20,312 bases of DNA from positions 1-20,312 of the IMG/VR virus record IMGVR_UViG_3300024520_006865. The stretch is one strand, 5' to 3'. Within the stretch, counting starts at the first letter, position 1. Each line of letters begins with the position of its first letter. This document shows positions 1,702-17,010 of the stretch, in pieces. This DNA is from a virus. Made by a program: the position numbers and the translations under genes. The notes under the pieces are model-generated. The model ran no database searches and had not been told where the DNA came from. It saw only the letters and a list, made by a program, of their open reading frames with translations.

Positions 1702-1947
1702 CACCACCACCAAAGTTAACTCATTGGTAATCAACGCTCTATCCGGCCCCGTTATCCTCCACCAACTTAAAAGGCCCGATCACACGATCGGGCCTTTTTT
1801 TATGCGGTTATGCTACTTTTAAAGGGGTTTATTAATATTTACTGGGCGTTTTGTATAAGCCTGTAACTGCCCCTATCTGCCTCTATTATGCCTTTTTTAT
1901 CGCCACCAAGCGCCACCAGTGCATAATAACGCCACCATTCACCACCA
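1702..1947. repeat. CCACCA-type repeats upstream of integrase, candidate arm sites
   Basis: CGCCACCA occurs at 1901-1908, 1911-1918 and 1930-1937, and CACCACCA at 1940-1947, so starts fall at about 10-bp steps with one step skipped. Related copies are at 1702-1712 (CACCACCACCA) and 1757-1764 (CTCCACCA). Helically phased direct repeats just upstream of a tyrosine integrase gene resemble arm-type integrase or excisionase sites. The 1678-1964 gap otherwise holds the terminator and no ORF I can support. Confidence 0.4.
1769..1800 (+). terminator. Strong Rho-independent terminator
   Basis: A 9-bp GC-rich stem, GGCCCGATC (1773-1781) pairing with GATCGGGCC (1786-1794), closes a 4-nt loop and is followed by seven T. 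AAAA on the 5' side also pairs with TTTT, so it may act in both directions. It insulates the secreted/membrane pair from the integrase. Confidence 0.9.
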
Positions 1948-1964
1948 CTATGGAGGCTTTAATA

Positions 1965-3086
1965 ATGGCCAGAATTGCGAAGTTGAGAAAAATTGAGCGG
2001 AAAGATCGTGGCTCTTCGAAATGGGGAATTTCTGTTCCGCAACCGGGGAAACGGTCGAAGCGAATATTTTTCGAGTCGGCGGCGAAGCGGGATGCACACT
2101 TTGCTAAATTAAAGCGGGCGGTTCAATCAGAGGGGCATGGCATTCTTTCGACTTCGGCGGCGGATGTGGCGCTACTCAGCGACCTTCGGGAGATTCTGCC
2201 AGTGGGTGTGGACCCCCGGGAGGCCGCGCGGTTTTATGTTGAACAGCTATGCCCAGATTCAACGGTATCGCTGAAGGAGGCCGTGCGGGGCTTTTTAAGG
2301 AAGCAGCAGGCGGCTCGGATTTCGCAGGATCATTATAAACACCAGGAACTTGCGCTGAAGCGGCTAACGACTGGAGTAGGTGATGAGATGATGGTGGCAG
2401 CGGTGAGTCAGGATATAATTCATGAGCTTCTTTTCGGCATGCCATTTAAGGATTCAACGCTGGACGGGTATCATAAAAACTGGGGAACCTTTTTTAATTG
2501 GTGCGTGAAGCAACGGTTTTGCGCAGTGTCGCCACTGGCCACGATGGACCGGATCAGCCTGGCAGAGAGTGAGCCGGAGTTTATGCCGGCGGGTGATGTG
2601 GCTAAGTTCTTTAAGAAAGCTTTGAAATTGCATCCGGAGATTACGCCTGCTCTGGCGTTGTCGTTTTTTGCGGGGATGCGGAGCTCAGCAATCGCCCGGC
2701 TGGAGCGCGGAGACCTGGACTTTGAACAGCATGGCATCCGCCATAAGGGTGCGTCGCACAAAATGAAGCGGCGGTTTTATGTGCAGGGTTTTGAGCCGAA
2801 CCTTTGGGAATGGCTGGAACCTTGGAAAAACCTGAAGACACTCCCCATCTGGCCGAGCAGTACCGCGATCAAGTGGAGGGAGGATATCTACAAAAGCGCA
2901 AAGGTTGCATTTCCCCACAACGCTGGGCGGCATTCGTTTTGCACCTATCATGTGGCGTTGCACGGGAGCGCGGATCGGACGGCTACCCTGCTGACCCACC
3001 GGGGCAGCATCTCAATGCTGTATGATCATTATCGAGGCAATGCGAAGAAGACAGAAGCGGAGGTTTATTTTAAAATTCTGCCCTGA
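1965..3086 (+). CDS. int: Tyrosine site-specific integrase (phage type)
   Basis: The protein has 373 residues from ATG 1965, chosen because GGAGG (1952-1956) sits 8 bases before it; an in-frame extension to 1851 has no such support. The basic N-terminus (1-55) suits an arm-binding domain, 100-200 the core-binding SAM-like domain (VSLKEAVRGFLRKQQ...), and 205-373 the catalytic domain. Visible catalytic residues are Arg239 (FAGMRSSAIARLE), a Lys in KGASHKMKRR (261-268), Arg322 in NAGRHSF, His345 (LLTHRGS) and the nucleophile most likely Tyr356 in YDHYRG (Tyr353 is the alternative). The first position of the HxxR motif is Asn319 rather than His, as I recall from PVC-group integrases. It would catalyse prophage integration and excision. 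It converges with the sulfotransferase, overlapping it by 17 bp. Confidence 0.92.
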   Translation: MARIAKLRKIERKDRGSSKWGISVPQPGKRSKRIFFESAAKRDAHFAKLKRAVQSEGHGILSTSAADVALLSDLREILPVGVDPREAARFYVEQLCPDSTVSLKEAVRGFLRKQQAARISQDHYKHQELALKRLTTGVGDEMMVAAVSQDIIHELLFGMPFKDSTLDGYHKNWGTFFNWCVKQRFCAVSPLATMDRISLAESEPEFMPAGDVAKFFKKALKLHPEITPALALSFFAGMRSSAIARLERGDLDFEQHGIRHKGASHKMKRRFYVQGFEPNLWEWLEPWKNLKTLPIWPSSTAIKWREDIYKSAKVAFPHNAGRHSFCTYHVALHGSADRTATLLTHRGSISMLYDHYRGNAKKTEAEVYFKILP

Positions 3087-3666
3087 TCGATTCGTATAAT
3101 TCGAAATCGGATCGGAAGTATTCCCGCACCAGCGTGCGCATCCGCTGTGAATAGATGTCGGCATGGTGGCGATGATTCGACCGATTCACCAGGCGCAGCT
3201 CTGTTTCGGTACGTAAATGCTTTTCTTTCAGCATGGCACAGAACGGTTCCAGCCGATCAAAGGGCCAGCATTCCACCGGAATGCTTCCATCCATTGCCTG
3301 AACAAAACTGCTTTGCGGACGGAACATGGCCATTTTTCGAAGCCGGACGATGTTTTCCGGCAGGGTATGGCAGAAATGCGTGAACGATCGGAAGCTGTGC
3401 AGCAGCTCCACATCGGCGGAGCCGGTGCGGTCGAACCGCTCCCGGCCATAGCAAAAGGCGGATAAAAGATGATCGTATGGATTGCGAATCAGGGCATACC
3501 CGGGCATGGATGAAAAATAATCCAATCCATACAGGCGCTGGTAGTCCCGCACCGTATCATGGGTATCTCGGAAGGCCGGATTCACCTTCCGGATCATAGC
3601 GGAAACCGCCATGCCGCCGGTTTTCGGAACATGGATGAAAACAAAATCAGAGCTTTTCCGCGTCAT
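3070..3666 (-). CDS. PAPS-dependent sulfotransferase (Sulfotransfer_2-like)
   Basis: This is a 198-residue cytoplasmic enzyme that should transfer sulfate from PAPS to a carbohydrate hydroxyl. The 5'-phosphosulfate-binding loop is FIHVPKTGGMA (residues 10-20, PKTGG core) and the 3'-phosphate-binding motif is RNPYDHLLSAF (61-71, Arg and Ser both present). The HVPKTGG form is that of the carbohydrate sulfotransferase branch (heparan 2-O / chondroitin type and bacterial relatives). The length is slightly short but complete, with no signal peptide or membrane segment. The start ATG (3664-3666) has AAGGA two bases upstream and lies inside the end of the glycosyltransferase gene (20-bp overlap), so they are co-translated. 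The substrate is unknown; context points to the glycan made by its neighbour. It is an unusual cargo for a phage late operon. Confidence 0.88.
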   Translation of the reverse strand: MTRKSSDFVFIHVPKTGGMAVSAMIRKVNPAFRDTHDTVRDYQRLYGLDYFSSMPGYALIRNPYDHLLSAFCYGRERFDRTGSADVELLHSFRSFTHFCHTLPENIVRLRKMAMFRPQSSFVQAMDGSIPVECWPFDRLEPFCAMLKEKHLRTETELRLVNRSNHRHHADIYSQRMRTLVREYFRSDFELYESIRAEF

Positions 3667-4864
3667 AATCCTTCACCGGAAAGCGTGTGCATTTCAGCCA
3701 TTCAAAGGGTTCATAATTCTGCATCCAGATCATAAACGATTCCGGCTTATGCGTCGAATCCATGGTGACCACCAGGGTATCCGGAAGTTTTGCGTCGATT
3801 GAAAAATCTTTTCTATAGATTTCAGTGTCGGTCGTATCCTTAACAAACAGCGCAAAACCATCGGCCCTTCCAAGCCTTGGAAGGATGGCTTTCAAATCCA
3901 GCCGGCAGGTGAATCGATAGTTTGTGCATTTTTTCCAAACACTGGAAGCAAAGTCTGGCAGCGATAGATTCACCTTGGCTTCCGGCGCAATATAGGAATT
4001 TGAAAAGCTGATTCCGGACATATTTTCAAACTGCTCCAGAGTCCGGACGCTGCCGAGCCCGTATTCAAAGAGATTAGATCCGGTTAATAACGCTTTAACC
4101 CGCTCTTTACTCACCACATCGCGGTCATGAAAGGCTGTTTCAAAACCGTTCTGAACGGTATGGTCCCCCCAATGTTTCGAGCGCCCTTCGCGGGTATATT
4201 CATGCCACACCACATTCCGATCCGGCAGAAACATATCATATCCATGCGTCCAGGAGCGGACGGCCATACTGATTTCTTCGCCAATAAAGTACAGATCCGG
4301 ATCATAGCGCACCTCTTCGCAGTATTCGCCGAAGGTGAACATGAAATGACCCGACCAAAACATATGCTTGCGCAGCCCGGCATCGGCCCGATCTTCCGGA
4401 TGAAAGGTGGTGATAATGCGCAGATGATCATAATTCGGACGCATCGCCCACAGCTTACTGCAGCGTTCTTCGGTTTCAATATTAAACGAGGGAATATACC
4501 CTGTAATAATAGGTTTATCCGATTCTGCCCGCTCCAGCATATCCATCAGCGCAACATCCCATCCCTCCGCAAAGCGATGGTGCGAATCGAGCTGCAGCGT
4601 ATATTCTTCCCCCTGCCAGAGTTTTTGAACCTCCGACCGCGCCCAGCAGGCGCCGCGCGAATCCTGAAAAGGAACCGCCAGAATCCGGAAACGCGGATCT
4701 TCCGTATACTCGGCCAGCGAATCCCACGCATCATCCGCGCTGAATTGGTGGCAGATCCCGAAGGACAGCCCCCAGGGATTCACCGCATTTTCCAGCGCCG
4801 ATTGAATGGTCGGGACGAGTTGTGGATCCCGATAGGATGCAATCTGGATAAATATTTTTTTCAT
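3647..4864 (-). CDS. GlcNAc-type polypeptide glycosyltransferase (PF11397-like)
   Basis: This 405-residue enzyme resembles the family containing the Skp1 GlcNAc-transferase and many bacterial and phage homologues. The N-terminus IFIQIASYRDPQLVPTI (4-20) is the family signature. LQLDSHHRF (90-98) supplies the Asp-x-His metal/nucleotide-sugar site, and FIGEEISMAVRSW followed by HEY is the catalytic/acceptor region. Residues from about 290 on look like an additional C-terminal beta-rich domain. It probably transfers a sugar (GlcNAc by family precedent) from a UDP-sugar to protein in the cytoplasm. Its ATG overlaps the stop of the adhesin gene (TGATG), so its dose is tied to the adhesin, which makes the adhesin's Thr-Pro tail the first acceptor to test. 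The acceptor is inferred, not seen. Confidence 0.85.
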   Translation of the reverse strand: MKKIFIQIASYRDPQLVPTIQSALENAVNPWGLSFGICHQFSADDAWDSLAEYTEDPRFRILAVPFQDSRGACWARSEVQKLWQGEEYTLQLDSHHRFAEGWDVALMDMLERAESDKPIITGYIPSFNIETEERCSKLWAMRPNYDHLRIITTFHPEDRADAGLRKHMFWSGHFMFTFGEYCEEVRYDPDLYFIGEEISMAVRSWTHGYDMFLPDRNVVWHEYTREGRSKHWGDHTVQNGFETAFHDRDVVSKERVKALLTGSNLFEYGLGSVRTLEQFENMSGISFSNSYIAPEAKVNLSLPDFASSVWKKCTNYRFTCRLDLKAILPRLGRADGFALFVKDTTDTEIYRKDFSIDAKLPDTLVVTMDSTHKPESFMIWMQNYEPFEWLKCTRFPVKDYDAEKL

Positions 4865-6369
4865 CAGGTCGGTGTTGTTGGTGGTGTTGTCGGCGGCGTG
4901 GTAGGCGGCGTCGGGCTCGGTGTTGGTGTTGGTGTAGGTGTTGGAGTTGGCGTCGGTGTTGGTGTTGGCGTGGGTGTAACATTAAACACTGTCACAGAAC
5001 CGCCCGCGATATCATTCTGCTCCGCCTCAGTGCCGCCGAAAATCACACACGTTGCATTATAAGCATATGAACCATCGGACAGATTATTTTCATTAACATC
5101 TTCCGAGTTGCCCCCACTCGCATTGCCATTATCCCATGAGATATCCAGATCCTGATTACTCGTAACATCGCCAGAACTAATATCCCCCTCCGCAGCAACT
5201 GCCACAGAAAGGGCGGCATCATACGGCTCATCACCGCTTTGAGTGACTGGATTCACTGTAGCTGTAATTCCAAACGGCGGAACCGAGGCCGTCGGGAACT
5301 GATTCGAATCGAAGGATCCGAGCCCGATTAAACCGGATTTAAATTCAGTATCCGCCGTTGCAACATCTGAATTTAATTCAGTCCACCCACTGCTCAAACC
5401 GGAACCTAATGCATTAAAATCAAACCCCAGAGGCGCGGAACTTTTCACATGCACTTTGCAGGCGCCATCGAGGGCCGGAGTGAACGAAGCTTTTGCCCCG
5501 CCGGTTAAGGCCGATAATAGTACATTAATATTCGACCACCCATCCAGTATCAGCCGGGATTCTGTGGTGGCCTTACCAAACGGCGGCACTGCCGGAGAGG
5601 ATGCGCCGGAATAATCATCCTCCGCATTCTGGTGAAGCTGTGCAATATTGCCGCCGGAAAAATTACTACCCGAAACATCCGCCGATTTTTCCCCATCGCC
5701 ATCCTCGCCCGCCTGATCGGCCCACGAAAACACACGGCCCGACCGCAAATCTACATTCGGCATCGACCACTGCACATACTGCACCGCTTTCAGTGCCGTA
5801 ATCAAATCTTCAAACAACGCCGGAACATCAAACAGATCGCCGGTCTGGCAAACGCGGGCGGAATTCGGATATTGCAAAAGGGGCTCCCCATTGGCATCCG
5901 CGTTGGTAGCATAGCGAAAACCAAAATTCCCGCCGCCATCATGCAACCCCACCGCCAGGCAAAAGTTTTCAAAATATTCAGCTGCATCCACCCAGGTATC
6001 ATATGCGCGGTCCGCCCAGGAAACATACCCTGTTAAACCAGTGCTGGCAGAGGCCGATGAATTATTATAATCTGCAGCAATCACATTCCCGAAATGCAGC
6101 CCGGTGAAAAACTCCTGAAGCGCCGCAAAGGTTGAGGCTTTTCCTGCATCTTCCGAATCGGCAGTAGGCGCAACGATATTCAGAAAATCAGACCACCCCG
6201 CCGCCAGAGCACGCTCCTTCACCGCATTAGTCAGTTTAAGCGCATCGGCGGAATCCAGCCAATCGAACACGGAAAAATCCGTCTCCGGATCATACTGAAA
6301 ATCCGGAGTCTGAACCACCACCGCATCATCAACCTCAAAACCGACACTGTCTATAACCTTGGCGATCAT
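4864..6369 (-). CDS. Tail-tip/adhesin-like protein with C-terminal Thr-Pro tail
   Basis: This 501-residue acidic protein is the last structural-looking gene of the tail module. The first ~230 residues are mixed alpha/beta with many Trp/Tyr/Phe (DFSVFDWLDSADALKLTNAV, YDTWVDAAEYFENFCLAVG) and recall tail components that assemble on the hub. Residues about 230-460 are Gly/Ser/Asn-rich and beta-like. The last ~40 residues are almost only Thr and Pro: a run of about a dozen TP dipeptides, then SPTP and three PPTT units. Such a tail should be extended and surface exposed, and is typical of O-glycosylated linkers. It follows the hub-like gene by 7 bp and is coupled to the glycosyltransferase. No enzymatic motif or intramolecular chaperone was found. 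A receptor-binding role is inferred from position. Confidence 0.6.
   Translation of the reverse strand: MIAKVIDSVGFEVDDAVVVQTPDFQYDPETDFSVFDWLDSADALKLTNAVKERALAAGWSDFLNIVAPTADSEDAGKASTFAALQEFFTGLHFGNVIAADYNNSSASASTGLTGYVSWADRAYDTWVDAAEYFENFCLAVGLHDGGGNFGFRYATNADANGEPLLQYPNSARVCQTGDLFDVPALFEDLITALKAVQYVQWSMPNVDLRSGRVFSWADQAGEDGDGEKSADVSGSNFSGGNIAQLHQNAEDDYSGASSPAVPPFGKATTESRLILDGWSNINVLLSALTGGAKASFTPALDGACKVHVKSSAPLGFDFNALGSGLSSGWTELNSDVATADTEFKSGLIGLGSFDSNQFPTASVPPFGITATVNPVTQSGDEPYDAALSVAVAAEGDISSGDVTSNQDLDISWDNGNASGGNSEDVNENNLSDGSYAYNATCVIFGGTEAEQNDIAGGSVTVFNVTPTPTPTPTPTPTPTPTPTPSPTPPTTPPTTPPTTPT
4867..4980 (-). repeat. Hexanucleotide Thr-Pro coding microsatellite
   Basis: The plus strand reads as repeated GGTGTT/GGCGTT/GGAGTT-type hexamers, followed towards 4867 by a 9-base-based GTCGG/GTGGT pattern. 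On the minus strand this encodes the (TP)n and (PPTT)n tail. A 6-bp unit can gain or lose copies without breaking frame, so tail length could vary between virions or lineages. Confidence 0.8.
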
Positions 6370-6376
6370 AGAAAAA

Positions 6377-8113
6377 CTATCTCCACTTCAAATGATCCCA
6401 TTCGCCCGCCAGCACCGTTTCAGCATTCACGGTTTTTTCAACCAGCTGCAGAACCATCCCCTTGGCTTTGCCATCGGAAGAAGGCAGTCCGCCCCCTCCC
6501 ATCATATTGCCGTTCTGGTTGGCGGTTGCGCCGCCCATGCTCACCGCACCGGATGAGCCGCTGGCCGGTTCTTTGCGCGACCAGACCGAAGGCGAACGGT
6601 TACGGGTGGCCCGCGCCATTTCAATAATATCCTGCGGTCCGAGGTGCTGCGGCGGACCGAACTGCACCGTGGTGCTGGACCGACCAGGCACATGCGAAAT
6701 CCGAACGGAATTAATGACCGCATTAATCTGATCAAACCCTGAAAAGCCATCAATGGTGTCCAGCCACTGAATCGCATCATCCCACGCTTCGGCATCATCC
6801 CAGCTTTCAGCCACTCCGCCGGGTTCCATATTACAAACCATCGAGGTGTTCGCTGTCCAGTCCGGCTCTTTGGCCACCATGGAAATGGATCCTTCATATT
6901 GAAGAAGAGAACGCTCATCCAGCAACGCATCCGCCAGACCAGTCGGGATATCTTCCGGCGGGGTATAAGAAGCCGAAGTTACCTGAGAATATTTTTTTGA
7001 TTCCGCATCGGTCAGGGTAATATTCACCGCAATGGTTTCCCCATCAATGGCCGTGCCTTTATATTTTCCCGACACTTTTGCTGTAACCACCGCTTCCTCG
7101 GCCACCCGTCCGGTCCATTCCGGCACCGACCCATTTTCAAGGATGCGCGGAAGCGCACTGGTATTCGCCTGATCTGTAATTGAAATATCAGTAATATCGG
7201 ACAAGCCTGGAATAAAGCGTTCAAAAAAAGTTTTACCCGGAGTGGCCGGCATCGTCGAAGTAACCACTTCCACCTCCTGCTCCGTGGAGCTGGCCTCCAC
7301 GCCATACAGCTCCAGCGTTTGCCGCAGCACATTCAGACCCTCCGTATCTCCAGCGGTGTCCTGCTGTGTTTTGGTGAAAAACTCCCCATCCACATTATTT
7401 CCGATCTCATAATTAATCACCACGCCATCGAGCAGGAGATCATTGCGCGGGCTGACGGATAGGGCCTGCAATTCCGTGGCCGTGAAGGTGGCGCTGGTGG
7501 CGGAGGCGCGTTTCACAAAATTGATGATCGGCGTGCCGGTGGAATAGTCCACCGAGGTGGCGACCGAGGGCGCCCAGTTGAGCAGATGCCGGATGGCCTC
7601 AAAGCAGGTGATGTCCACAAATTCTGAATCGGGCGGAATGGTTCCAATGCCTGGATAATTTACAGAGAAAGAAAGCCCCGCATTCTGGGCATAGCCCACC
7701 ACATCGCCCAGCGCCACATTCACCGTCACGCGCTGATCGTCCACATCTTTGCCGAGTTTCACGCGGCCTTTAAAATAGGTATTGTCCTCGTCTTCGTGCC
7801 AATCCTGTTCATAGATGATCCGGTTCAGATCCCAGATGATATTTTTGCAGGTATATGTGCGGGCTTCCAGTTGACCCGGCATACCAACGCGCGGATTATT
7901 GGTGCAGGTTCCGATGAATCGAATGGTGGTGTCCTGAATGAGCTGCACCGTGTCGCCATAGCCCATGACCGGGGAGGTATTCAGTGCCACCTTTTTTTCA
8001 TTCAGGCGCAGCGTATCTTCGCCGAGGTTCATCAGCACCAGATCGAACTGCTGAATACCCAGGGCGTTCAGTTCGGATTCAACTCCATTAATCTTCAGTT
8101 TCCACACACTCAT
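6377..8113 (-). CDS. Tail hub / baseplate-like minor tail protein
   Basis: The protein has 578 residues and sits immediately after the tape measure, overlapping its stop by four bases (ATGA). The N-terminus (MSVWKLKINGVESELNALGI) and the following ~350 residues are beta-rich, with segments such as TTIRFIGTCTN, ARTYTCKNIIWDLNRIIYE and CFEAIRHLLNWAPSVA that fit a gp27/hub-like tail protein in this genome position. A WDDAEAWDDAIQWLDTI stretch follows at about 440-460. Residues about 490-540 are a Gly/Met/Ala-rich low-complexity linker (GGATANQNGNMMGGGG) leading to a short terminal domain (VEKTVNAETVLAGEWDHLKWR) that may contact the adhesin encoded next. No lysozyme or peptidase motif is visible. 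The hub assignment rests mainly on gene order. Confidence 0.6.
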   Translation of the reverse strand: MSVWKLKINGVESELNALGIQQFDLVLMNLGEDTLRLNEKKVALNTSPVMGYGDTVQLIQDTTIRFIGTCTNNPRVGMPGQLEARTYTCKNIIWDLNRIIYEQDWHEDEDNTYFKGRVKLGKDVDDQRVTVNVALGDVVGYAQNAGLSFSVNYPGIGTIPPDSEFVDITCFEAIRHLLNWAPSVATSVDYSTGTPIINFVKRASATSATFTATELQALSVSPRNDLLLDGVVINYEIGNNVDGEFFTKTQQDTAGDTEGLNVLRQTLELYGVEASSTEQEVEVVTSTMPATPGKTFFERFIPGLSDITDISITDQANTSALPRILENGSVPEWTGRVAEEAVVTAKVSGKYKGTAIDGETIAVNITLTDAESKKYSQVTSASYTPPEDIPTGLADALLDERSLLQYEGSISMVAKEPDWTANTSMVCNMEPGGVAESWDDAEAWDDAIQWLDTIDGFSGFDQINAVINSVRISHVPGRSSTTVQFGPPQHLGPQDIIEMARATRNRSPSVWSRKEPASGSSGAVSMGGATANQNGNMMGGGGLPSSDGKAKGMVLQLVEKTVNAETVLAGEWDHLKWR

Positions 8114-9873
8114 CGGGCACTGGCCACCTGCTGTTTAACGGTTTCCAATCCTTGAACAAGCTCGCTAATGCCGGCGGCAATTTCATCCAGCGCACTGGCC
8201 CCTTGCTTTGCAGAAGCTTTCACGGCCTCCGCCGCACTGGCATCGGGCGAGGATCCGGAAGCAGCCTTGGCTGCATTGGTCGGATCCAGAAATTCATGAT
8301 ATTTAGAGAAGCCGGTTCCATTGGCCACCAACCGGTTTTCGCGCTCCTGCGCCATTCGATCCCAATCAGAAAGGGGTTTTTGCGGAAGCGCATCCGCGGG
8401 ATTAAAGCCGGGCTTCAATATTTCACCCAACCCCAAAGATTGCGCCGCCGCCGGAGTGGGCGTGTCACCAATGATTGCCATCACTTCATCCGAACTTTTT
8501 CCCTCCGTCGCGCCGGCGGGTGTTGGAGAAATTTTCCGCTCCGCATCACGCTTCGCCTCTTTCACCCCTTTAATAATAGCGATTTCTTCCTTCGCCGCAT
8601 TTTTTAGAAACTTAATCTGTGCCTCAATAGCCGCCTGACTCTCATCCCCGATAATCCCTTGCTGTAATATATCCTGCAGTTGCTCAATTTCCCCAAGAAT
8701 CGACTGCAGTTTCGGGCTATCAAACGCCAGCCCAACCGTGGCCGATCCATCATTAAGCGCCCAGGATAAATTTTCAATCTGCTCAGTGAGAAAACCAATG
8801 GCAATTCCCCATTCATCCGTCCGCATCAACTGCGCACCGAAGTTTTGCCAGGAGCTTTTTAATTTTTCCACCGCCCGGAGAGCTGTGCCATTGTTCTGAT
8901 CAAACGCCAGAGCAGCAGAGCCGGCGGAGTTGTAGGCATTGGCCAGACTTGCACCAAACCCTTCCGCATTTTTGCCGGTCAGATTAAGCACCCCGTTCAG
9001 TGCCTCTGTTTCGGAAAAGAATTTTGTGATCTCAATGCCGCCGCTCTGCGCGGAAGTAACCACCTGCTGCAAAGCACCCGACAATCCATAGGTCTGAATC
9101 AGCGCATCGCCATTAGTTACACCCAACTGTTTAAACAGCAGTTTCATATCCGCCGTCGGTTTTTTAAGAGCCACCATAATGGCGCGGATCTGGGTCATAG
9201 CTTCTGCCGTTGGAGCGCCGCGCTTTGTGATGGCCGCCGCAGCCGCCGCCAGCTCTTCAAAATCAATCCCCATGGCCGCCGCTAATGGCGCCGCCTTGGA
9301 AAGAGAACTGGCCAACTGATCGAAGGTGGTTTTACCATCCTTCACCGCCGCAAAAAGAATATCCGCCGCGCGTTCCGCCGAAATTGTATCACTTCCAAAC
9401 GAATTAACCACCGTGGACAAAACATCCACCGCCGTTTCTGTGGAGGATAAGCCGGCAATAGCCGCCGTGCTGGAGGTTTTCAGAAACTCCAAAAGATTTT
9501 CACGCGGAACACCGGCGGAAATGGCCTGATAAGCCGCGCGGGTGGTATCAATCAGATCCGTACCCATCAACACTGAGGCCTCCTGAATATCCTTCGTCAG
9601 CTCCTTAAAGCCGTTTTCATCCAGATTCAACAGAGAGTTTACTTCGCGGGCGGCGCGTTCAAATTCGGCAGCAGAAGTGATGATGCTTTTGGTTGCAAGA
9701 GCCGCCGAGGCCGCAATACCAACACCGGCCCCCACACCAATCAGCCGCAAACTGCGCGAGACTTTCGCCCCTTCATTGCCCAGCATGCGCATATTATTCT
9801 TTGCGGATTTAAAGGCGCGGCCTGTTTTATCTTCGGCCTCAATTGGAACATTGACTGACCCACGCTTAAACAT
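8110..9873 (-). CDS. Tail tape measure protein (TP901 family)
   Basis: This 587-residue protein determines tail length and is expelled at DNA injection. The N-terminus VPIEAEDKTGRAFKSAKNNM is the usual tape-measure opening. A hydrophobic Gly/Ala segment (LIGVGAGVGIAASAALATK, about 42-60) follows, then the conserved TP901 core at about 70-300 (AAEFERAAREVNSL, TRAAYQAISAGV, ALATKS, FEELAAAAAAITKRGAPTAEA). The rest is helical and Ala-rich, with a low-complexity Pro/Ala/Ser zone before the C-terminus. It is short for the family; at the usual ~0.15 nm per residue it predicts a tail of roughly 85-90 nm. The start overlaps the frameshifted chaperone extension by 8 bp, and the end overlaps the hub gene. 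Confidence 0.92.
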   Translation of the reverse strand: MFKRGSVNVPIEAEDKTGRAFKSAKNNMRMLGNEGAKVSRSLRLIGVGAGVGIAASAALATKSIITSAAEFERAAREVNSLLNLDENGFKELTKDIQEASVLMGTDLIDTTRAAYQAISAGVPRENLLEFLKTSSTAAIAGLSSTETAVDVLSTVVNSFGSDTISAERAADILFAAVKDGKTTFDQLASSLSKAAPLAAAMGIDFEELAAAAAAITKRGAPTAEAMTQIRAIMVALKKPTADMKLLFKQLGVTNGDALIQTYGLSGALQQVVTSAQSGGIEITKFFSETEALNGVLNLTGKNAEGFGASLANAYNSAGSAALAFDQNNGTALRAVEKLKSSWQNFGAQLMRTDEWGIAIGFLTEQIENLSWALNDGSATVGLAFDSPKLQSILGEIEQLQDILQQGIIGDESQAAIEAQIKFLKNAAKEEIAIIKGVKEAKRDAERKISPTPAGATEGKSSDEVMAIIGDTPTPAAAQSLGLGEILKPGFNPADALPQKPLSDWDRMAQERENRLVANGTGFSKYHEFLDPTNAAKAASGSSPDASAAEAVKASAKQGASALDEIAAGISELVQGLETVKQQVASAR

Positions 9874-10024
9874 CTTTCGCCTTTTCCTTTAGCCGGAGAT
9901 ACCAAACGATAAATTCAGCAGCCGGCATCCGCATCACATCTGAAACCTGAAGACCTCGATCTTCCGCCACATCGTAAATTATTCCGATGAGCCTTCCGCT
10001 TTCCCGTCCGGCGACGAAAACTCC
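9866..10024 (-). CDS. Tail-assembly chaperone -1 frameshift extension (gpT-like)
   Basis: This is the -1 reading frame relative to the chaperone gene. It is open from a TAA in the chaperone reading region (near 10070) to TAA 9866-9868, just inside the tape-measure start. The part after the proposed slip encodes 52 residues, GVFVAGRESGRLIGIIYDVA and on to MRMPAAEFIVWYLRLKEKAKDV. The MPAAEFIVWYLRL ending strongly resembles the C-terminal part of GT-type tail chaperones. There is no ATG at the right place and no Shine-Dalgarno; the only in-frame start is a GTG that would give about 34 residues. Expression as a fusion of about 164 residues with the upstream protein is therefore the best reading, as in lambda G/GT. 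Confidence 0.7.
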   Translation of the reverse strand, partial: GVFVAGRESGRLIGIIYDVAEDRGLQVSDVMRMPAAEFIVWYLRLKEKAKDV

Positions 10025-10359
10025 CCCAGCAATTTTGGATCGAGGGAGTCCGCATTCAGGATCGTATTAGCAATAATCGAGATCACAAACGGGGAAGCCT
10101 TGGTGCGCATCCACCTTTTATCCGCCAATGAGAAGGCCGGTTTTCCATGCTCATCCCGCGTGTGGCGGATAATGACCTCGATTAAATAATCCGGATGCTC
10201 TTCATCCAGTTTAATCCGATCCTCCACCGTCAGCGGGTCAAAATACAGAACGCACTCGTCATCGAGATCATCCCACTGAGGAACCCGCATGTGCTGGTTC
10301 CCAAGTGCAGTGAAATGAGCAACAGCCGGTCCGCGCCACCTGGACTTCTCAATGGCCAT
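9979..10359 (-). CDS. Tail assembly chaperone (gpG-like)
   Basis: This 126-residue protein lies between the tail tube and tape-measure genes, the standard chaperone position. The segment IEVIIRHTRDEHGKPAFSLADKRWMRTKASPFVISIIANTIL (about 60-100) matches the typical RDEDGKPLF...D...L pattern of siphoviral chaperones. The acidic Ser-rich end (EFSSPDGKAEGSSE) is the part replaced when ribosomes shift to the -1 frame. It would coat the tape measure during tail assembly and not be in the virion. The ATG overlaps the tail-tube stop (TAATG). Confidence 0.82.
   Translation of the reverse strand: MAIEKSRWRGPAVAHFTALGNQHMRVPQWDDLDDECVLYFDPLTVEDRIKLDEEHPDYLIEVIIRHTRDEHGKPAFSLADKRWMRTKASPFVISIIANTILNADSLDPKLLGEFSSPDGKAEGSSE
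10001..10027 (-). promoter_or_regulatory. Programmed -1 frameshift signal (G5 slippery site plus hairpin)
   Basis: In the chaperone frame the codons CTG GGG GAG contain GGGGGAG (minus strand, 10027 to 10021). A P-site glycine tRNA on GGG can slip back one base onto an identical GGG. Immediately downstream, 10020-10013 pairs with 10008-10001 (UUUUCGUC / GACGGGAA, loop GCCG, two G-U pairs) to form a stimulatory hairpin; its strong CGUC/GACG core starts 4 nt after the slip site. The heptamer is not a perfect X-XXY-YYZ because the A-site codon re-pairs imperfectly. Confidence 0.55.
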
Positions 10360-10763
10360 TATGCAACCGTGCCGCGAACCAGAGCGCCTTTACCGGACAC
10401 CGTCACTTCATAGGTGGTAACATCCGTTTCAGACAAGGAAACGCTCACACTCGTCACCGTGCCGGTGCCGGTGAATGTTTCATATCCAGTGGTTTCGCCG
10501 GAGAAATCAAGTTCCAGATCCACTTCCTCAGCTTCAATCAGATCAGCCTGTGGCGCATCCGATGGATCGTAATTACAAGTCAGCGAAACTTCCCAGCTTT
10601 TGATTCCGGGGAAGGTTTCCTTCCAGGTGTCACCAATGGCAGTTCCCTCGATGGTTTCCGCTGTGATATTAAGATTGAAGCTCTTCACTTCGCCGATGGC
10701 CGCAACAGTGCCGCCCGTTGTTACGGCTTTAATAATGCCGCTTTGTCCTGAATGACGTGCCAT
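10359..10763 (-). CDS. Major tail tube protein
   Basis: This 134-residue beta-rich protein would polymerise into the tail tube. Its sequence (MARHSGQSGIIKAVTTGGTV, GEVKSFNLNITAETIEGTAIGDTWKETFPGIKSWEVSLTCNYDPSD, ending VTTYEVTVSGKGALVRG) follows the TP901-1/lambda-V tube pattern, including the WKETFPGIKSWEVSL strand pair. GGAGG six bases before the ATG is one of the strongest ribosome-binding sites in the window, consistent with high copy number. It has its own 156-bp leader holding the 38-bp repeat shared with the capsid gene and two palindromes. It is coupled downstream to the chaperone. Confidence 0.85.
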   Translation of the reverse strand: MARHSGQSGIIKAVTTGGTVAAIGEVKSFNLNITAETIEGTAIGDTWKETFPGIKSWEVSLTCNYDPSDAPQADLIEAEEVDLELDFSGETTGYETFTGTGTVTSVSVSLSETDVTTYEVTVSGKGALVRGTVA

Positions 10764-10779
10764 AGTTTTGTCCTCCGTT

Positions 10780-10799
10780 GAATGGATAGCTATTCATTC
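10780..10799. promoter_or_regulatory. Imperfect 20-bp palindrome in tail-tube leader
   Basis: GAATG-G-ATAGCTAT-T-CATTC (plus strand) is symmetric except for one mismatched pair. It sits about 17 bp upstream of the tail-tube ATG, next to the Shine-Dalgarno sequence, and could be a protein-binding site or leader hairpin. Function is unknown. Confidence 0.35.
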
Positions 10800-10815
10800 T
10801 TCTTAGGACGGAAGA

Positions 10816-10853
10816 TTCGCACGGGTAAAAAAAAGGCAGGGTCAGGAGCGGAG
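10816..10853 (-). repeat. 38-bp repeat, copy A (tail-tube leader)
   Basis: This 38-bp sequence is identical to 19259-19296. On the coding (minus) strand it is a C-rich stretch, a run of eight T (10834-10827), then ACCCGTGCGAA. It ends 52 bp before the tail-tube start codon. See the finding on this repeat. Confidence 0.95.
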
Positions 10854-10859
10854 CTGCGC

Positions 10860-10885
10860 GGTGTTAGGTTTTAAAACTTAACACC
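10860..10885. repeat. 26-bp near-perfect palindrome after the phosphoesterase gene
   Basis: The sequence is GGTGTTA, then a TTTTAAAA-centred core, then TAACACC, with one mismatched pair in 13. It lies 35 bp beyond the phosphoesterase stop and 7 bp before the 38-bp repeat. There is no adjacent U-run, so it is not a standard terminator; it may act as a 3'-end stabiliser or operator. It contains the TTAGG/CTTAA motifs of the 7-bp repeats found in other gaps. Confidence 0.6.
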
Positions 10886-10919
10886 CTCAAAACATTCTGT
10901 TTCAAACAAAAGCGGACAC

Positions 10920-12098
10920 TCAGCAACTCAGTAGCAGGCGCTGCGGATTGCAGGTATGGCGTTCCACTTCACCGCATTCTTTATGGTAAACAATGCCGAC
11001 CAGATCGCGCCCGGCGCGGTAGCCATTGGATGCTTCATAGGAATCTTTGGCTTTCAGGCTTCGGAAAGCTTCCACTGTGCAGCCGCCAATTTCAATGACG
11101 CGGTGATGATGCACATGCCCGACATGCCAATAGCGGAACTTGGTGCGGCCCCAGGCTTCGGCCTGATCGCAGGTCATGACGGTATGCAGGGCAGCCGGTT
11201 TAATGATGCCATGATTCGCGCCCAGCAAAACCTGCCCGAATTCTTTAAAATGAAAGGTGGTGTATTTGGTATCCACCCACACGCGCGGCTCATTGCGATA
11301 GTGCTCATCCATCATCATGGCCAAACAGAAAGCGGTCTGATCGTCGTGATTTCCTTTCACGCAAACCAATTCCACCCGCTCATGCTTTTCAAGGCATCGA
11401 TCCACACAATGCGTCAGCATCCGCAGGGCAATTTTCACCACGCGGCCCCATCGGCCATCCACATCCAGATGATGCCCGCTGCGGCGGGTCATGGCATCTT
11501 CCGTGTCGGAGTGGAACAGATCGCCCAATTCCTCAATGCGGCACACCCCGCAGGAAGGCATGGCATCCACCACTCGATCCACCGCGCGGATGGTTTGCTG
11601 TTCGCAGATATCGCAGTTGAAATCTTCCCCGGTTTCCTCGGCCCAGGCATACATGCCCAGATGCGGATCGCCAATCGGGATATTCGCCAATAAATCAGCA
11701 TCAAAAAATTCAGGTCCAACAATCTCATAATCCCGCACCGGCACCTGATCCCGCAGCGCGGAGGCAAATAATTCCATCTGAGCCTCCAGATCCTGCTGCT
11801 GTTTATCTGTCCGCACCCACTCCTGCACCACCACGCCGTCTTTGGTATGGGTGGTCACTTTGCCCACGCGGCGGCCCGGGCCGGCCACACCTTCCGCCGA
11901 ACAGGCCTGGATCAAACCCTTTGCCGTGGCCTTCTTTTCCAGCGCTTTCAAGGAGTGGAATACAGCGGGTTTTGATTTGCCCAATGCTTTGGCGGCCCGT
12001 GCAAAAGAACCCTGCCGGCAGTATTCGGTATAGGCATCGCGCTGCACCCCCGTTCCAAGTTCCGCAATCCGTTCGTCGAATACTTTTTCAAAGGCCAT
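10920..12098 (-). CDS. HTH plus metallophosphoesterase fusion
   Basis: This protein has 392 residues. Residues about 15-70 form a helix-turn-helix (YTEYCRQGSFARAAKALGKSKPAVFHSLKALEKKA), as in phage-encoded DNA-binding modules. From about 140 a calcineurin-like phosphoesterase carries all metal-binding blocks: GDPHLG, GDLFHSD, GNHDD, the mid-domain NHG, and GHVHHHR. Two CxxC-like pairs (CDIC, CGVC) lie between the first blocks and may bind zinc. It should hydrolyse phosphodiester bonds, and the HTH suggests a DNA substrate. It sits between tail terminator and tail tube with gaps on both sides, an odd place for a nuclease. It could be a moron, a host-DNA or recombination nuclease, or a DNA-processing factor. 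ATG 12098 is the only good start. Confidence 0.8.
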   Translation of the reverse strand: MAFEKVFDERIAELGTGVQRDAYTEYCRQGSFARAAKALGKSKPAVFHSLKALEKKATAKGLIQACSAEGVAGPGRRVGKVTTHTKDGVVVQEWVRTDKQQQDLEAQMELFASALRDQVPVRDYEIVGPEFFDADLLANIPIGDPHLGMYAWAEETGEDFNCDICEQQTIRAVDRVVDAMPSCGVCRIEELGDLFHSDTEDAMTRRSGHHLDVDGRWGRVVKIALRMLTHCVDRCLEKHERVELVCVKGNHDDQTAFCLAMMMDEHYRNEPRVWVDTKYTTFHFKEFGQVLLGANHGIIKPAALHTVMTCDQAEAWGRTKFRYWHVGHVHHHRVIEIGGCTVEAFRSLKAKDSYEASNGYRAGRDLVGIVYHKECGEVERHTCNPQRLLLSC

Positions 12099-12130
12099 AC
12101 ACTCGCTCCGTTATTGTTTATCCGCCAGAT

Positions 12131-12146
12131 CCTAAAACCTAAAACC
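12131..12146. repeat. 7-bp tandem repeat (CCTAAAA x2) in gene gap
   Basis: Two exact CCTAAAA units plus CC fill part of the 55-bp gap between tail terminator and phosphoesterase genes. It is one of the heptad tracts discussed in the findings. Confidence 0.6.
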
Positions 12147-12153
12147 GCACGCC

Positions 12154-12567
12154 CTACCGATACCGCACCGCATCGGCGCACTTAGCCACGGCGGCCACAT
12201 CTTTGCCATCGTGCTCAATATCGTAGTCATCGCCAGTCGGCTGTATAAATTCCACGAGGCCGGATAAGGTTTCATCGGCCAGCACAGCGGCCTCCCGCTT
12301 TTCGCAGAGATCGTCCAGCAGGGCTTCCACCACTTCGGCATCGGCCCCCTGCACATGGATCTCGGAACTGATCTTCGCCTCCCGATCAAACACGCGCGGC
12401 GTTCCAATATGTGCCAGTTCCTTTTCCTCTTCCTCAAAATAGATGCAGATCGCGGGCATATCGCGCGGATCGATCGAGCGGCGCCGCCCCAGATAGACCT
12501 TTTCAAAGTCCGCCACCCCTTCATAAATCCCCTTCAGGGCTTCCCGTATATCTGTTCTTGTTGGCAT
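12154..12567 (-). CDS. Tail terminator protein (gpU-like)
   Basis: This 137-residue protein would cap the growing tail and join it to the head. The pattern is that of the family: an N-terminal helix (TDIREALKGIYEG), VYLGRRRSIDPRDMPAICIYFEEEEKELA as the beta hairpin, then EIHVQGADAEVVEALLDDLCEKREAAVLAD and LSGLVEFIQPTGDDYDIEHDG. The order (after the FII-like gene, before the tube) is as expected, apart from the phosphoesterase inserted next to it. GAAAGG upstream is the likely ribosome-binding site, inside a small AAACCT/AGGTTT hairpin. Confidence 0.75.
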   Translation of the reverse strand: MPTRTDIREALKGIYEGVADFEKVYLGRRRSIDPRDMPAICIYFEEEEKELAHIGTPRVFDREAKISSEIHVQGADAEVVEALLDDLCEKREAAVLADETLSGLVEFIQPTGDDYDIEHDGKDVAAVAKCADAVRYR

Positions 12568-12593
12568 AATTAAACCTTTCAGGTTTGGCCGAG

Positions 12594-12628
12594 AGCTGTC
12601 AGCCGCCAGCTACTAGCTCCCGGCTGTT
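12594..12628. repeat. 7-bp tandem repeat (AGCTNNC-type x5) in gene gap
   Basis: Five adjacent heptads (AGCTGTC, AGCCGCC, AGCTACT, AGCTCCC, GGCTGTT) lie immediately beyond the stop of the FII-like gene and before the tail-terminator leader. The unit sequence differs from the other gaps but the period is the same. Confidence 0.7.
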
Positions 12629-12631
12629 CAT

Positions 12632-12964
12632 TCACACACTCTTCAAATCCAGTTCCGTAACCCCATTACCATCCGGCTCCGGGGTGCCGACCACATAAGC
12701 CGCGCCATCCACCATCACCGAATCGCCCTCCCGGGCATTGGGAATTTCCGCCGTCTGGATTTTCACGCGCGGATTCATCGAGTCCTGCCCGGCATACCCC
12801 ATGGCTGCCCGCAGATATTCATTCGACTGAATGCCGCGCACCTCGATGGTTTCTGTGTTCACCTCATCGTCGTTCCAGACTTCCAGATCGTTCCAATAGA
12901 GCGGAACCACGCAGGGAACTGTGAGCTCTTCGCATTCAAATAATTCAGCAGTAAAGGTTTCCAT
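12632..12964 (-). CDS. Head-tail joining protein (gpFII-like)
   Basis: This 110-residue protein has the features of lambda FII-type head-tail connectors: an acidic N-terminus (METFTAELFECEELTVPCVV), a central beta region (EVNTETIEVRGIQSNEYLRAA), and RVKIQTAEIPNAREGDSVMVDGAAYVVGTPEPDGNGVTELDL, the usual RGD-like loop plus YxV-x-EPDGtG ending. It is followed by the tail terminator, as in lambda. It is flanked by 7-bp repeat tracts on both sides. Confidence 0.75.
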   Translation of the reverse strand: METFTAELFECEELTVPCVVPLYWNDLEVWNDDEVNTETIEVRGIQSNEYLRAAMGYAGQDSMNPRVKIQTAEIPNAREGDSVMVDGAAYVVGTPEPDGNGVTELDLKSV

Positions 12965-12981
12965 ATCAGCGCCTCCGGCGC

Positions 12982-13011
12982 GGCACTAGGCACTGGGCAC
13001 TAGGCACTGGG
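12982..13011. repeat. 7-bp tandem repeat (GGCACTR x4) in gene gap
   Basis: Four exact units alternate GGCACTA and GGCACTG, followed by GG, in the gap between the DUF1353 gene and the FII-like gene. The TAG stop of the DUF1353 gene (13000-13002) lies inside the tract, so the repeat encodes its last residues. Confidence 0.8.
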
Positions 13012-13410
13012 TTTTTGTTTCAGGTGGACCATTCCATTTTCACGCGCTGCACCCCCGCCGAAAAAGAAGGTGGTCCAGAGCCAGGTGAATGAGCGGATGC
13101 TGCGGCCTTCGCTTTTCAGGATGTCGGAAAGCACTTTGCTGGCCTGCCAGTTGGTGCATTTCGTTCCATCATCCCACCGGCCTGTATCGCAAAGCACATC
13201 ATGCACCCACCAGCTTTGACTGTAGATGTCGGAAGCCGGCCCGCTGGCTCCATCGGATTTATAGCCTTCCGGCACGGTTACGGTTTTATTGAACCGCTCG
13301 GAGACATAAATAAACTGCTTCGGGTTCGCATACTTAATGCGCGGAACCTTCGTTTTCCGATCGGCCCGGCGAACGAGTTTATGAATCCGTCTGGAAGCCC
13401 GCGATTTCAT
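13000..13410 (-). CDS. DUF1353 family phage protein
   Basis: This protein has 136 residues from ATG 13410, preferred over a TTG at 13425 because it overlaps the upstream stop as ATGA. The DUF1353 signature is clear: VTVPEGYKSDGASGPASD, then WWVHDVLCDTG, and ASKVLSDILKSEG. The family occurs in many tailed-phage late operons, often near lysis genes, and has a conserved His/Asp pair (here in VHDVLCDTG) suggestive of hydrolase chemistry; its function is not established. The basic N-terminus (MKSRASRRIHKLVRRADRKTK) is an extra. It lies between the small hydrophobic protein and the FII-like gene. Confidence 0.8.
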   Translation of the reverse strand: MKSRASRRIHKLVRRADRKTKVPRIKYANPKQFIYVSERFNKTVTVPEGYKSDGASGPASDIYSQSWWVHDVLCDTGRWDDGTKCTNWQASKVLSDILKSEGRSIRSFTWLWTTFFFGGGAARENGMVHLKQKPSA

Positions 13411-13583
13411 TTTGCTTTCCGCCAATCAAGAGCGCCCTGCACCAGGGCGCCAATCGCGCCGATGCCGAAAATAAACGCCTGCGTTTTCCACTCTTCGGAA
13501 GCCGCAATGGCGGTGATGGCCGCGCCGATAATTGCGGCCTTCTTGCTCATTCCGCTGCTGGGTGCTGGAGATTGATCAGCCAT
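13407..13583 (-). CDS. Small hydrophobic protein, holin-like size
   Basis: This is a 58-residue protein (MADQSPAPSSGMSKKAAIIG..., ending ALVQGALDWRKAK). Two hydrophobic segments, AAIIGAAITAIAA (16-28) and AFIFGIGAIGALVQGAL (about 36-52), are separated by a charged turn (SEEWKTQ), the layout of a small holin or other phage inner-membrane protein. The ATG overlaps the lipoprotein stop (TAATG-type junction at 13583) and the stop overlaps the DUF1353 ATG (ATGA), placing it firmly inside the operon. No specific family is recognised. Confidence 0.65.
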   Translation of the reverse strand: MADQSPAPSSGMSKKAAIIGAAITAIAASEEWKTQAFIFGIGAIGALVQGALDWRKAK

Positions 13584-14041
13584 TATGCACCGCCCGGCGT
13601 GAGCCCGTAATAGTCCACCGCTTCCTCCACACCCTGGAAGAATTCAGCAATGAGCGCAGCCTTTTCCATATCCGGATTCAGGTCGATCTGCTCCAGGAGC
13701 CGATCCTTTGCCCGCTTAAAAACCACCAGCACCGCTTCACGTTCTTCGGGTTCGGCCTTGGAGAACAATTCCTGCACTGCTTCGCGTAGCAGATCATCAG
13801 TAACGGTATCCAGATCATCGGTGGTTGTGGCAAAGGAATAGATCTCCGCAATAATGGCCCGATGCTCCTCCGCAATGAATGGCCGCGCCACCACATAAGC
13901 CTCCACCACTTCAAAGCCCGCTTCTGCAGGAGTGGCATCGGAAGAGCCGGCAAGGGTTGAGCAGCCGGATCCGGTAATCATTAAAGCCATCGACAGGATG
14001 GCAACGGCAAAACAGGCCGCATCAATTGCTTTCTTCTTCAT
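13583..14041 (-). CDS. Putative lipoprotein, unknown function
   Basis: This protein has 152 residues. The N-terminus MKKKAIDAACFAVAILSMALMITGSGCSTLAGSS has a basic start, a hydrophobic core and a lipobox-like GSGC, so Cys27 is the likely lipidation site. The mature part is acidic and helical (TDDLLREAVQELFSKAEPEEREAVLVVFKRAKDRLLEQI, then MEKAALIAEFFQGVEEAVDYYG). It is coupled to its neighbours on both sides. Lipoproteins beside small membrane proteins in a late operon may be outer-membrane spanins or morons; it is longer than typical Rz1. Confidence 0.65.
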   Translation of the reverse strand: MKKKAIDAACFAVAILSMALMITGSGCSTLAGSSDATPAEAGFEVVEAYVVARPFIAEEHRAIIAEIYSFATTTDDLDTVTDDLLREAVQELFSKAEPEEREAVLVVFKRAKDRLLEQIDLNPDMEKAALIAEFFQGVEEAVDYYGLTPGGA

Positions 14042-14340
14042 GGTGTTCCTCCATTAGTTGAATAAATGGTTTTAATTACGCCCCAGATAAAGGACAGCAC
14101 CGTGGCCGTGATGGCCGCATGCGCCATAGTGATCTTCGGTGCAGGCTGAGCCCGCCTGCAATCCACACACGCTTTTTCCATGGCAGCAACCTTCTGCTGC
14201 TCAATCCGGTGCGATTTTGAAAGATTCACCACATGCTCATTTAAAGTCGGCAGATCCTCCCGCTTCCCGTTCTGCAGAATTTTCTCACCATGCAGCAGCG
14301 TGTCGTGCCGATCTTTCGTGTCTGGATCTAAATCGGCCAT
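14038..14340 (-). CDS. C-tail-anchored coiled-coil protein
   Basis: This protein has 100 residues. The N-terminal two thirds are charged and helical (HDTLLHGEKILQNGKREDL, LNEHVVNLSKSHRIEQQKVAAMEKA) with a CVDC motif at about 58-61. A single hydrophobic helix, AHAAITATVLSFIWGVIKTIY (about 74-94), comes near the C-terminus. The layout resembles XhlA-type or i-spanin-like accessory lysis proteins. The start follows the upstream stop as TAATG and the end overlaps the lipoprotein start as ATGA. Assignment to lysis is inferred from the layout alone. Confidence 0.55.
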   Translation of the reverse strand: MADLDPDTKDRHDTLLHGEKILQNGKREDLPTLNEHVVNLSKSHRIEQQKVAAMEKACVDCRRAQPAPKITMAHAAITATVLSFIWGVIKTIYSTNGGTP

Positions 14341-14621
14341 TATGCTACCTGCTCTTTAAGTTTCCGTTTCAGACGTTGAAGCTTCCGGGCTGCTGTACCA
14401 GCTCCCGCCGTGGTGAGATATTCAACCTTCCCTGCGTCGGTATGGATGATGCACAGATCGGCTTTCAGTCCGTGGTCGTATAACCAACTCTTCATCCGTG
14501 TTTTACATTTCCCGTCATTGTCTCGATCGATCTTGTCCGGATGCTGCAGCGGGTAGGAAGCATTTACACGATGCGCCCGCTTTAATATCCGCCGATAATC
14601 CTCTGCAAAGGTGTTGATCAT
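14340..14621 (-). CDS. Small Cys-containing protein, weakly transglutaminase-like
   Basis: This 93-residue protein has no signal peptide. Residues about 30-70 (KIDRDNDGKCKTRMKSWLYDHGLKADLCIIHTDAGKVEYLTT) recall the GDCxDYAxxKrxxLxxxG...AxLxIV core of bacterial transglutaminase-like cysteine peptidases. However, the GD before Cys and the catalytic His of the GHAVL strand are not present as such; HTD is the nearest. A basic tail (RKLQRLKRKLKEQ) follows. It is the only candidate for a cell-wall enzyme in this block, but the resemblance may be chance. It overlaps its neighbours by 1-4 bases. Confidence 0.45.
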   Translation of the reverse strand: MINTFAEDYRRILKRAHRVNASYPLQHPDKIDRDNDGKCKTRMKSWLYDHGLKADLCIIHTDAGKVEYLTTAGAGTAARKLQRLKRKLKEQVA

Positions 14622-14989
14622 TCTTCAATTACCTTCCATTTAACAAACGCCACTGGTTTGTAGGATTTAAACTCGCCCGAAACCACCGTGTTTGAAAGCG
14701 CGGCCATGCACTCGATCTGGATGGTGGTAAAATTCGTCTTCGGGCCATCCAGCATCCATTGGGGCGGCGTTTCGAGAATCATCTTACCAGTCTCAGGGTC
14801 CATAGTGGCCATAAGCCACGGAAGCACCTTCACAGCGTTCGTTGTAGATCCAGATGAATCCGTAGTCACCGAATACGCTTCATTGGTGTTCACAGGGAAC
14901 GGAGGGATGTCCGCGCCACGCGCAATCGTGGCCACCAAGGACCAGATCAATATGTAGAGAGAGAGTTTCATTTTACGGAGCCCAGACAC
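14618..14989 (-). CDS. Secreted protein of unknown function
   Basis: This protein has 123 residues from GTG 14989, or 117 from ATG 14971. The GTG is favoured because GGGGG lies just upstream and because it overlaps the stop of a tiny ORF (TAGTG). A signal peptide (MKLSLYILIWSLVATIARGA) is clear with either start. The mature part has DIPPFPVNTNEAYSVTTDSSGSTTNAVKVLPWLMATMDPETGKMILETPPQWM and may be a beta-rich surface or virion-accessory protein. I do not recognise the family. It follows another Sec-signal protein, an unusual run within a capsid/tail operon. Confidence 0.6.
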   Translation of the reverse strand: MSGLRKMKLSLYILIWSLVATIARGADIPPFPVNTNEAYSVTTDSSGSTTNAVKVLPWLMATMDPETGKMILETPPQWMLDGPKTNFTTIQIECMAALSNTVVSGEFKSYKPVAFVKWKVIEE

Positions 14990-15039
14990 TAATACCCCCG
15001 CAGGACGTGCAGGATTAAGATGGCGAGTAGGCGGGTCAT
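14989..15039 (-). CDS. 16-residue hydrophobic micro-ORF
   Basis: ATG 15037-15039 opens a 17-codon frame, MTRLLAILILHVLRGY, ending at TAG 14991-14989, which shares its G with the GTG of the next gene. Its ATG lies 3 bp after the beta-helix stop and inside a perfect 7-bp inverted repeat (15033-15039 / 15045-15051). It may be a coupling peptide that carries ribosomes to the next gene, or a tiny membrane peptide. Evidence is positional only. Confidence 0.4.
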   Translation of the reverse strand: MTRLLAILILHVLRGY

Positions 15040-15051
15040 GGTTTATGACCC
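15033..15051. promoter_or_regulatory. Hairpin over stop/start junction
   Basis: GGGTCAT (15033-15039) pairs with ATGACCC (15045-15051) across a 5-nt loop. It spans the beta-helix gene's TAA and the micro-ORF's ATG, so in mRNA it would hide that start until a ribosome finishing the upstream gene opens it. Confidence 0.5.
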
Positions 15052-16746: not shown

Positions 16747-16760
16747 AAAATCACTCCGCA

Positions 16761-17006: not shown

Positions 17007-17010
17007 CAGA

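Follow-up and report, generated by a model that had tools for sequence, protein, structure and literature searches.

Skp1 Gnt1 of Dictyostelium is a polypeptide N-acetylglucosamine (GlcNAc) transferase of the GT60/PF11397 type, and the Pfam family PF11397, which corresponds to GT60, includes it. In the phylogeny of GT-A glycosyltransferases, GT60 stands together with GT27, both families having in common the DxH motif and the O-glycosylation of Ser and Thr in polypeptides (PMC7185993), and the GT60 enzyme of T. cruzi, TcOGNT, makes GlcNAc-alpha-Thr in mucin-like proteins (PMC9472816). According to Freeman et al. 2023, as cited in PMC12619734, mycobacteriophage virions are glycosylated on the capsid and tail-tube subunits, with glycans near the C termini. 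Here, we analyze three adjoining minus-strand genes (positions 3070 to 6369) of the IMG/VR virus record IMGVR_UViG_3300024520_006865, which is classed as linear and whose entire 20,312 bases form the window. They encode a probable tail protein ending in Thr and Pro residues, a PF11397 glycosyltransferase, and a predicted sulfotransferase using 3'-phosphoadenosine 5'-phosphosulfate (PAPS). We predict that this cassette probably performs mucin-type O-glycosylation in a phage, with a sulfate cap as a possible addition, on the grounds of the gene identities, the motifs, the predicted folds, the tight coupling of the genes, and the specific genomic association of the enzyme family with Thr-Pro tracts.

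The gene of the proposed acceptor (501 amino acids [aa], 4864..6369) is joined to that of the glycosyltransferase (405 aa, 3647..4864) by a TGATG stop-start junction with a 1-base overlap (4862..4866), and the glycosyltransferase gene overlaps that of the sulfotransferase (198 aa, 3070..3666) by 20 bp (3647..3666). The strand and the junctions are as a first-pass annotation of the window had them, and so is the Thr/Pro end of about 40 residues, for which we count 37 residues (465 to 501, 4867..4977 on the minus strand) consisting of 18 Thr, 18 Pro, and 1 Ser. Since third codon positions are mixed and the longest exact repeat in the DNA is 16 bases, the tract looks kept at the protein level, unlike a fresh microsatellite. 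No Pfam or NCBIfam family matched the 501-aa protein, and its PHROG matches come solely from the Thr-Pro tract. Its position at the end of the tail operon, after the tape measure gene and adjoining a 578-aa gene, makes it a probable tail or virion protein, so that the earlier description as tail-tip-like stands for the position of the gene and found no support in homology.

The glycosyltransferase matches PF11397 at 2.5e-56 (192 bits against a curated cutoff of 21), in agreement with the family first proposed for it, and has a further match, at 5.7e-89, to phrog_24687, a phage family. It consists of a GT-A catalytic domain (residues ~1 to 298) and a C-terminal beta domain (~315 to 405), and its DxH motif (D93-S94-H95, 4580..4588 on the minus strand) is invariant in 48 homologues. 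For the AlphaFold2 model, built on a 46-sequence alignment (predicted local distance difference test [pLDDT], 90.9), the best Foldseek match among solved structures was human ppGalNAc-T2 (1e-10), a polypeptide N-acetylgalactosamine (GalNAc) transferase. VIA-align 2, which only re-ranked the Foldseek list, filled its top 29 places (Z, 22.9 to 19.4) entirely with polypeptide GalNAc-transferases of animals and Toxoplasma and put the following entry at 17.1, a gap that fits the known kinship of GT27 and GT60. The best GT27 alignment (Z, 22.9) extends over 265 residues, with a root mean square deviation of 3.3 and about 15% identity. The 46-sequence profile retrieved no PDB chain at an E value of 0.01, hence no GT27 similarity at the level of sequence profiles, and sequence searches of solved structures with this enzyme, the 501-aa protein, and the product of the 578-aa gene gave nothing useful. 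The modeled fold speaks for a GT27-like way of working, not for membership in GT27, and a shared fold by itself shows no function. Neither a signal peptide nor a membrane segment is apparent in the sequence or the model.

The association of the enzyme with Thr-Pro tracts extends to many other genomes. A profile scan of viral contigs returned at least 554 relatives. We assembled 96 loci from the best 80 of them, 11 loci from bacterial genomes, and a small number of others, and 44 of the 96 have an open reading frame (ORF) with a Thr-Pro tract (at least 80% Thr plus Pro over 20 residues), frequently directly beside the enzyme gene. After dereplication to one locus per 70%-identity cluster (41 clusters), tracts were present in 20 of 160 ORFs at up to two genes from the enzyme versus 8 of 442 at four genes or more (Fisher p, 5e-7). 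The position immediately upstream of the enzyme is occupied by a Thr-Pro ORF in 11 of the 41 clusters, and 14 other residue pairs gave 0/160 for the ORFs near the enzyme. At the DNA level, the strict pattern (ACNCCN)5 occurs in 14 of 50 viral records bearing the enzyme versus 1 of 50 controls. In 10 of 13 nonduplicate records, no more than 3 kb separates it from the enzyme (1.1 records expected; 20,000 random placements included none as good), and the colocalization also holds in records of 35 to 290 kb.

The reciprocal search gave the same picture, as PF11397 was found in 16 of 100 records picked only for (ACNCCN)6 versus 2 of 100 controls with collagen-like repeats (p, 8e-4) and, within the stretches read, at 12 of 120 loci chosen for Thr-Pro versus none of 120 collagen-like (GPX) loci. 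Thr-Pro ORFs were absent from these 120 GPX loci and from 80 phage sulfotransferase loci, neither set having been chosen for Thr-Pro. The 49 Thr-Pro proteins encoded at up to two genes from the enzyme belong to 20 families with no mutual similarity outside the tract, among them the crAss-like muzzle protein (PF25729); one Thr-Pro family is common to 12 loci. Chance composition of the neighborhood is ruled out as an explanation by the control sets and the other residue pairs.

Among cultured phages, XacN1 carries the nearest homologue of the glycosyltransferase. Proteomic analysis revealed at least two glycoproteins in this phage, for which its authors suggest the phage's own glycosyltransferases (PMC5852040), and we found 29 matches to (ACNCCN)3 in its genome and none to the reversed control. 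About a dozen of its ORFs carry the pattern in frame, and Thr-Pro tracts are present in ORF180, ORF232-236, ORF325, ORF350, ORF372, and ORF384. The crAss-like phages have the enzyme flanked on one side by a Thr-Pro protein and on the other by the muzzle protein (PF25729), as in L029:8847-14936, and the muzzle protein itself carries a Thr-Pro tract in L017, L027, L036, and L066. Other neighbors of the enzyme are of sugar-decorating types, namely HtrL_YibB, a carbamoyltransferase, methyltransferases, GT25, and second copies of PF11397. Not all of the neighbors of about 765 aa are carbamoyltransferases: the L062 family is one, and that of L089 is a glycosyltransferase. Phage L003 has a 2OG-Fe(II) oxygenase gene (5151-5705; PF13640, 2e-11) overlapping that of its PF11397 enzyme (5698-6636) by 8 bases, an arrangement that recalls the prolyl hydroxylase and the hydroxyproline GlcNAc-transferase acting as a pair on Dictyostelium Skp1. 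The first-pass proposal that the enzyme of the window would modify the adjacent Thr/Pro tract gains strong and independent support from the GT27-nearest predicted fold, the recurrent Thr-Pro neighborhood in unrelated phages, and the XacN1 glycoproteins.

The sulfotransferase, likewise, retains both cofactor motifs that had been reported for it, HVPKTGG (3613..3633) for 5'-phosphosulfate and RNPYDHLLS (R61 to S69, 3460..3486) for 3'-phosphate, both on the minus strand; R61 is invariant and S69 nearly so among 50 sequences. Its match to PF03567 (7e-4, 20.3 bits) lies under the curated Pfam cutoff of 22, and that to phrog_3347 is at 8e-11. The closest solved structure to its model (pLDDT, 93.3) is a heparan sulfate 2-O-sulfotransferase (Z, 12.4), and the nearest folds are the heparan sulfate 2-O-, 6-O-, N-, and 3-O-sulfotransferases, mostly ahead of the SULT enzymes, with Z values that are modest throughout (12.4 to ~9.4). 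The phrog_3347 match and the fold support a predicted divergent relative of PF03567, of the type that acts on glycans. Divergent sulfotransferase genes also occur several to a contig, with about six or seven in each of the phage contigs L407 and L368, some of them in tandem.

The pairing of the two enzymes is rare. The PF11397 enzyme was found in none of the 80 phage sulfotransferase loci, which rules out the sulfotransferase as its regular partner, and the two genes were found adjacent in only two other places, L070 and L097. In L070, an unrelated phage, a glycosyltransferase gene (9977-11239) overlaps at ATGA that of a sulfotransferase (11236-12096) with a weak Pfam match (0.0018) and both PAPS motifs, and the run (9977-18609) continues with glycosyltransferase-like genes and then a 1,074-aa mucin-like protein with long Thr/Pro/Ser runs. 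L097 is an Akkermansiaceae chromosome in which a PF11397 enzyme with 47% identity precedes a sulfotransferase (PF03567, 9e-17) at 9998-12061, and no phage genes were recognized nearby. A gene for an RHS-repeat protein is located close to this pair. A third candidate, L003 889-1689 next to a PF11397 enzyme, has an MPRTGG sequence that is similar by eye and is without family support, and we did not count it. The same three-gene order was also sought in other phages, a check that the first-pass annotation had suggested, and the exact order was not found there. Single-sequence searches of viral contigs and phage records found no close relatives of the sulfotransferase, the 501-aa protein, or the 578-aa gene. 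The sulfate cap that had been proposed is plausible and has a parallel in the L070 pair, but its support is thin, with only two other adjacencies found and neither the enzyme nor a Thr-Pro ORF in the 80 sulfotransferase loci.

According to the mechanism that we propose, the three genes would close the tail operon and jointly produce a mucin-type virion glycoprotein. The tail-type protein would be produced late in infection, and the cytoplasmic GT60/GT27-like enzyme would use a UDP-sugar to glycosylate Thr residues of the Thr/Pro tail, the sugar probably being GlcNAc or GalNAc. The glycan-type sulfotransferase would then move sulfate from PAPS onto that sugar, before or after assembly, and the virion would thereby acquire a sulfomucin-like tail, stiff and acidic, which might serve in receptor binding, protease protection, or shielding. 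We consider it rather likely that the coupled enzyme attaches sugar to the tail, whereas sulfation of that sugar by the sulfotransferase has about an even chance; the explanation as a whole, a mucin-type virion glycoprotein with a sulfate cap, is the one we moderately favor. For phages in general, the case is finely balanced that many unrelated tailed phages, crAss-like phages included, carry mucin-type O-glycosylation based on a GT60/GT27-like transferase beside Thr-Pro virion genes, with additional glycosyl-, carbamoyl-, methyl-, or sulfotransferases (the last here and in L070), and that some tails are sulfomucins.

Several observations weigh against such a sulfated virion glycoprotein. A Thr-Pro ORF within 10 kb is missing from about half of the glycosyltransferase loci, and in 83 of 94 Thr-Pro loci the stretch read contains no PF11397 enzyme, so each partner occurs without the other. 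In the statistics, related phages count as partly independent, the ORFs were called mechanically, and the control has a different base composition and habitat. With no recognizable homologue of the 501-aa protein, its place in the virion is predicted from position. The pairing with a sulfotransferase is rare, the L097 pair is chromosomal and without a Thr-Pro neighbor, and the cassette meets the integrase gene with its sulfotransferase end, a usual site of lysogenic conversion genes.

Because the cassette touches the integrase gene, serotype conversion is the main rival: both enzymes would modify a surface glycan of the host (lipopolysaccharide [LPS], capsule, or a lipid-linked precursor) in the manner of prophage genes that modify the O-antigen, and the Thr/Pro tail would be a mere linker. 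This is the classic location of serotype-conversion genes, action on the host surface is a common proposal for phage glycosyltransferases (e.g., PMC10202952), a PF11397-sulfotransferase pair exists in the Akkermansiaceae chromosome, and the enzyme has LPS-type neighbors (GT25, HtrL_YibB) in other phages. However, the stop-start coupling to a tail-operon gene speaks against conversion of the host surface, which explains neither a nearest fold among polypeptide transferases nor the Thr-Pro association, and we regard it as unlikely. Membrane partners of the gtrA/gtrB type were not recognized around the cassette (ORFs read, small ORFs partly scanned, in a record that is a fragment).

A milder departure would keep the glycosyltransferase acting on the Thr/Pro tail and have the sulfotransferase act elsewhere, on a host polysaccharide, a small molecule, or tyrosine. 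Sulfotransferases of aquatic phages are frequent without the PF11397 enzyme (0/80 loci), and the role of phage sulfotransferases has been called unclear (PMC10580990). This division of labor seems doubtful to us, though less so than serotype conversion, given the 20-bp overlap with the glycosyltransferase gene, the recurrence of the pair upstream of a mucin-like protein in L070, and nearest folds that sulfate glycans. It could also be that PF11397 and Thr-Pro proteins merely share residence in the tail-gene modules of large aquatic phages, with a different target for the enzyme; several of the Thr-Pro neighbors are indeed structural genes, and several loci come from related phages, 12 of them sharing one Thr-Pro family. 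We find this improbable, the least probable of the alternatives, since collagen-like loci, with their tail-fiber type of repeat, show 0/120 for enzymes and Thr-Pro ORFs alike, other residue pairs are not enriched, and the effect is positional within genomes and holds across 20 unrelated protein families.

From our reading of the ORFs and the family scans, the record looks like the half of a temperate, siphovirus-like phage that carries its structural genes, in the order portal-like protein, capsid with fused prohead protease, head closure, tail terminator, major tail protein, and tape measure. The tail tape measure protein (8110..9873, minus strand; PF10145, 3.3e-29; TIGR01760, 1.8e-31) is followed by the 578-aa gene (6377..8113, minus strand), assigned to a hub or tail-tip position by its location downstream of the tape measure and without a match in Pfam or PHROG, then by the three cassette genes and a convergent gene on the plus strand (1851..3086). 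The product of the latter is a tyrosine-recombinase-like integrase by a sequence motif seen by eye, with no Pfam match at 0.1 save one chance match, and its gene and that of the sulfotransferase overlap at their ends by 17 bp. A 643-aa ORF (window positions 17318-19249) fuses the prohead protease (PF04586) to an HK97-type capsid protein (PF05065). Within the structural operon, a 392-aa protein (10920-12098) has a helix-turn-helix and a weak match to calcineurin-like phosphoesterases.

Few systems of phage virion glycosylation are described, mostly without a rule for locating the acceptors. If the association is causal, the simple rule of PF11397 next to a Thr-Pro tract would predict the enzyme together with its acceptor in hundreds of phages, those of the crAss-like type included, and phage PF11397 genes would gain a testable role where modification of DNA or of the host surface is usually guessed. 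A sulfated mucin-like tail, if true, would alter views on the persistence of phages in mucus and aquatic gels and on their encounter with receptors. No description of mucin-type or sulfated virion glycoproteins of phages was found in the literature that we searched, in which subscription journals are thinly covered.

Compared with the GT60/PF11397 GlcNAc-transferases (TcOGNT, Skp1 Gnt1), the enzyme of the window has the same Pfam family, the DxH motif, and a proposed Thr/Pro-rich acceptor; it differs from these eukaryotic enzymes in being phage encoded, with no Golgi or secretion step, and in having its gene adjoin that of the putative acceptor. The GT27 polypeptide GalNAc-transferases provide its nearest solved folds and have in common with it the GT-A fold and DxH, while their ricin-type lectin domain is not recognized in the phage enzyme, which ends in a beta domain. 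The likeness to mycobacteriophages lies in sugars near the C termini of virion proteins, which are on capsid and tail-tube subunits there and would here be on Thr-Pro tracts of other proteins, with a GT60/GT27-like enzyme and a sulfotransferase. Sulfotransferases of the phrog_3347 type and heparan sulfate 2-O-sulfotransferase resemble ours in the PAPS motifs and the fold, and the sampled phage members of the former, unlike ours, are not beside a PF11397 enzyme. The gtr clusters for O-antigen modification in prophages likewise place sugar-modifying genes next to an integrase, whereas the cassette has no recognized partners of the gtrA/gtrB type and is coupled to a tail-operon gene. Phage virion glycosylation and mucin-type transfer by GT60 in protists were already known, and what appears to be new, within the literature searched, is the recurrent location of a phage PF11397 enzyme beside genes for putative Thr-Pro acceptors, here together with a sulfotransferase.

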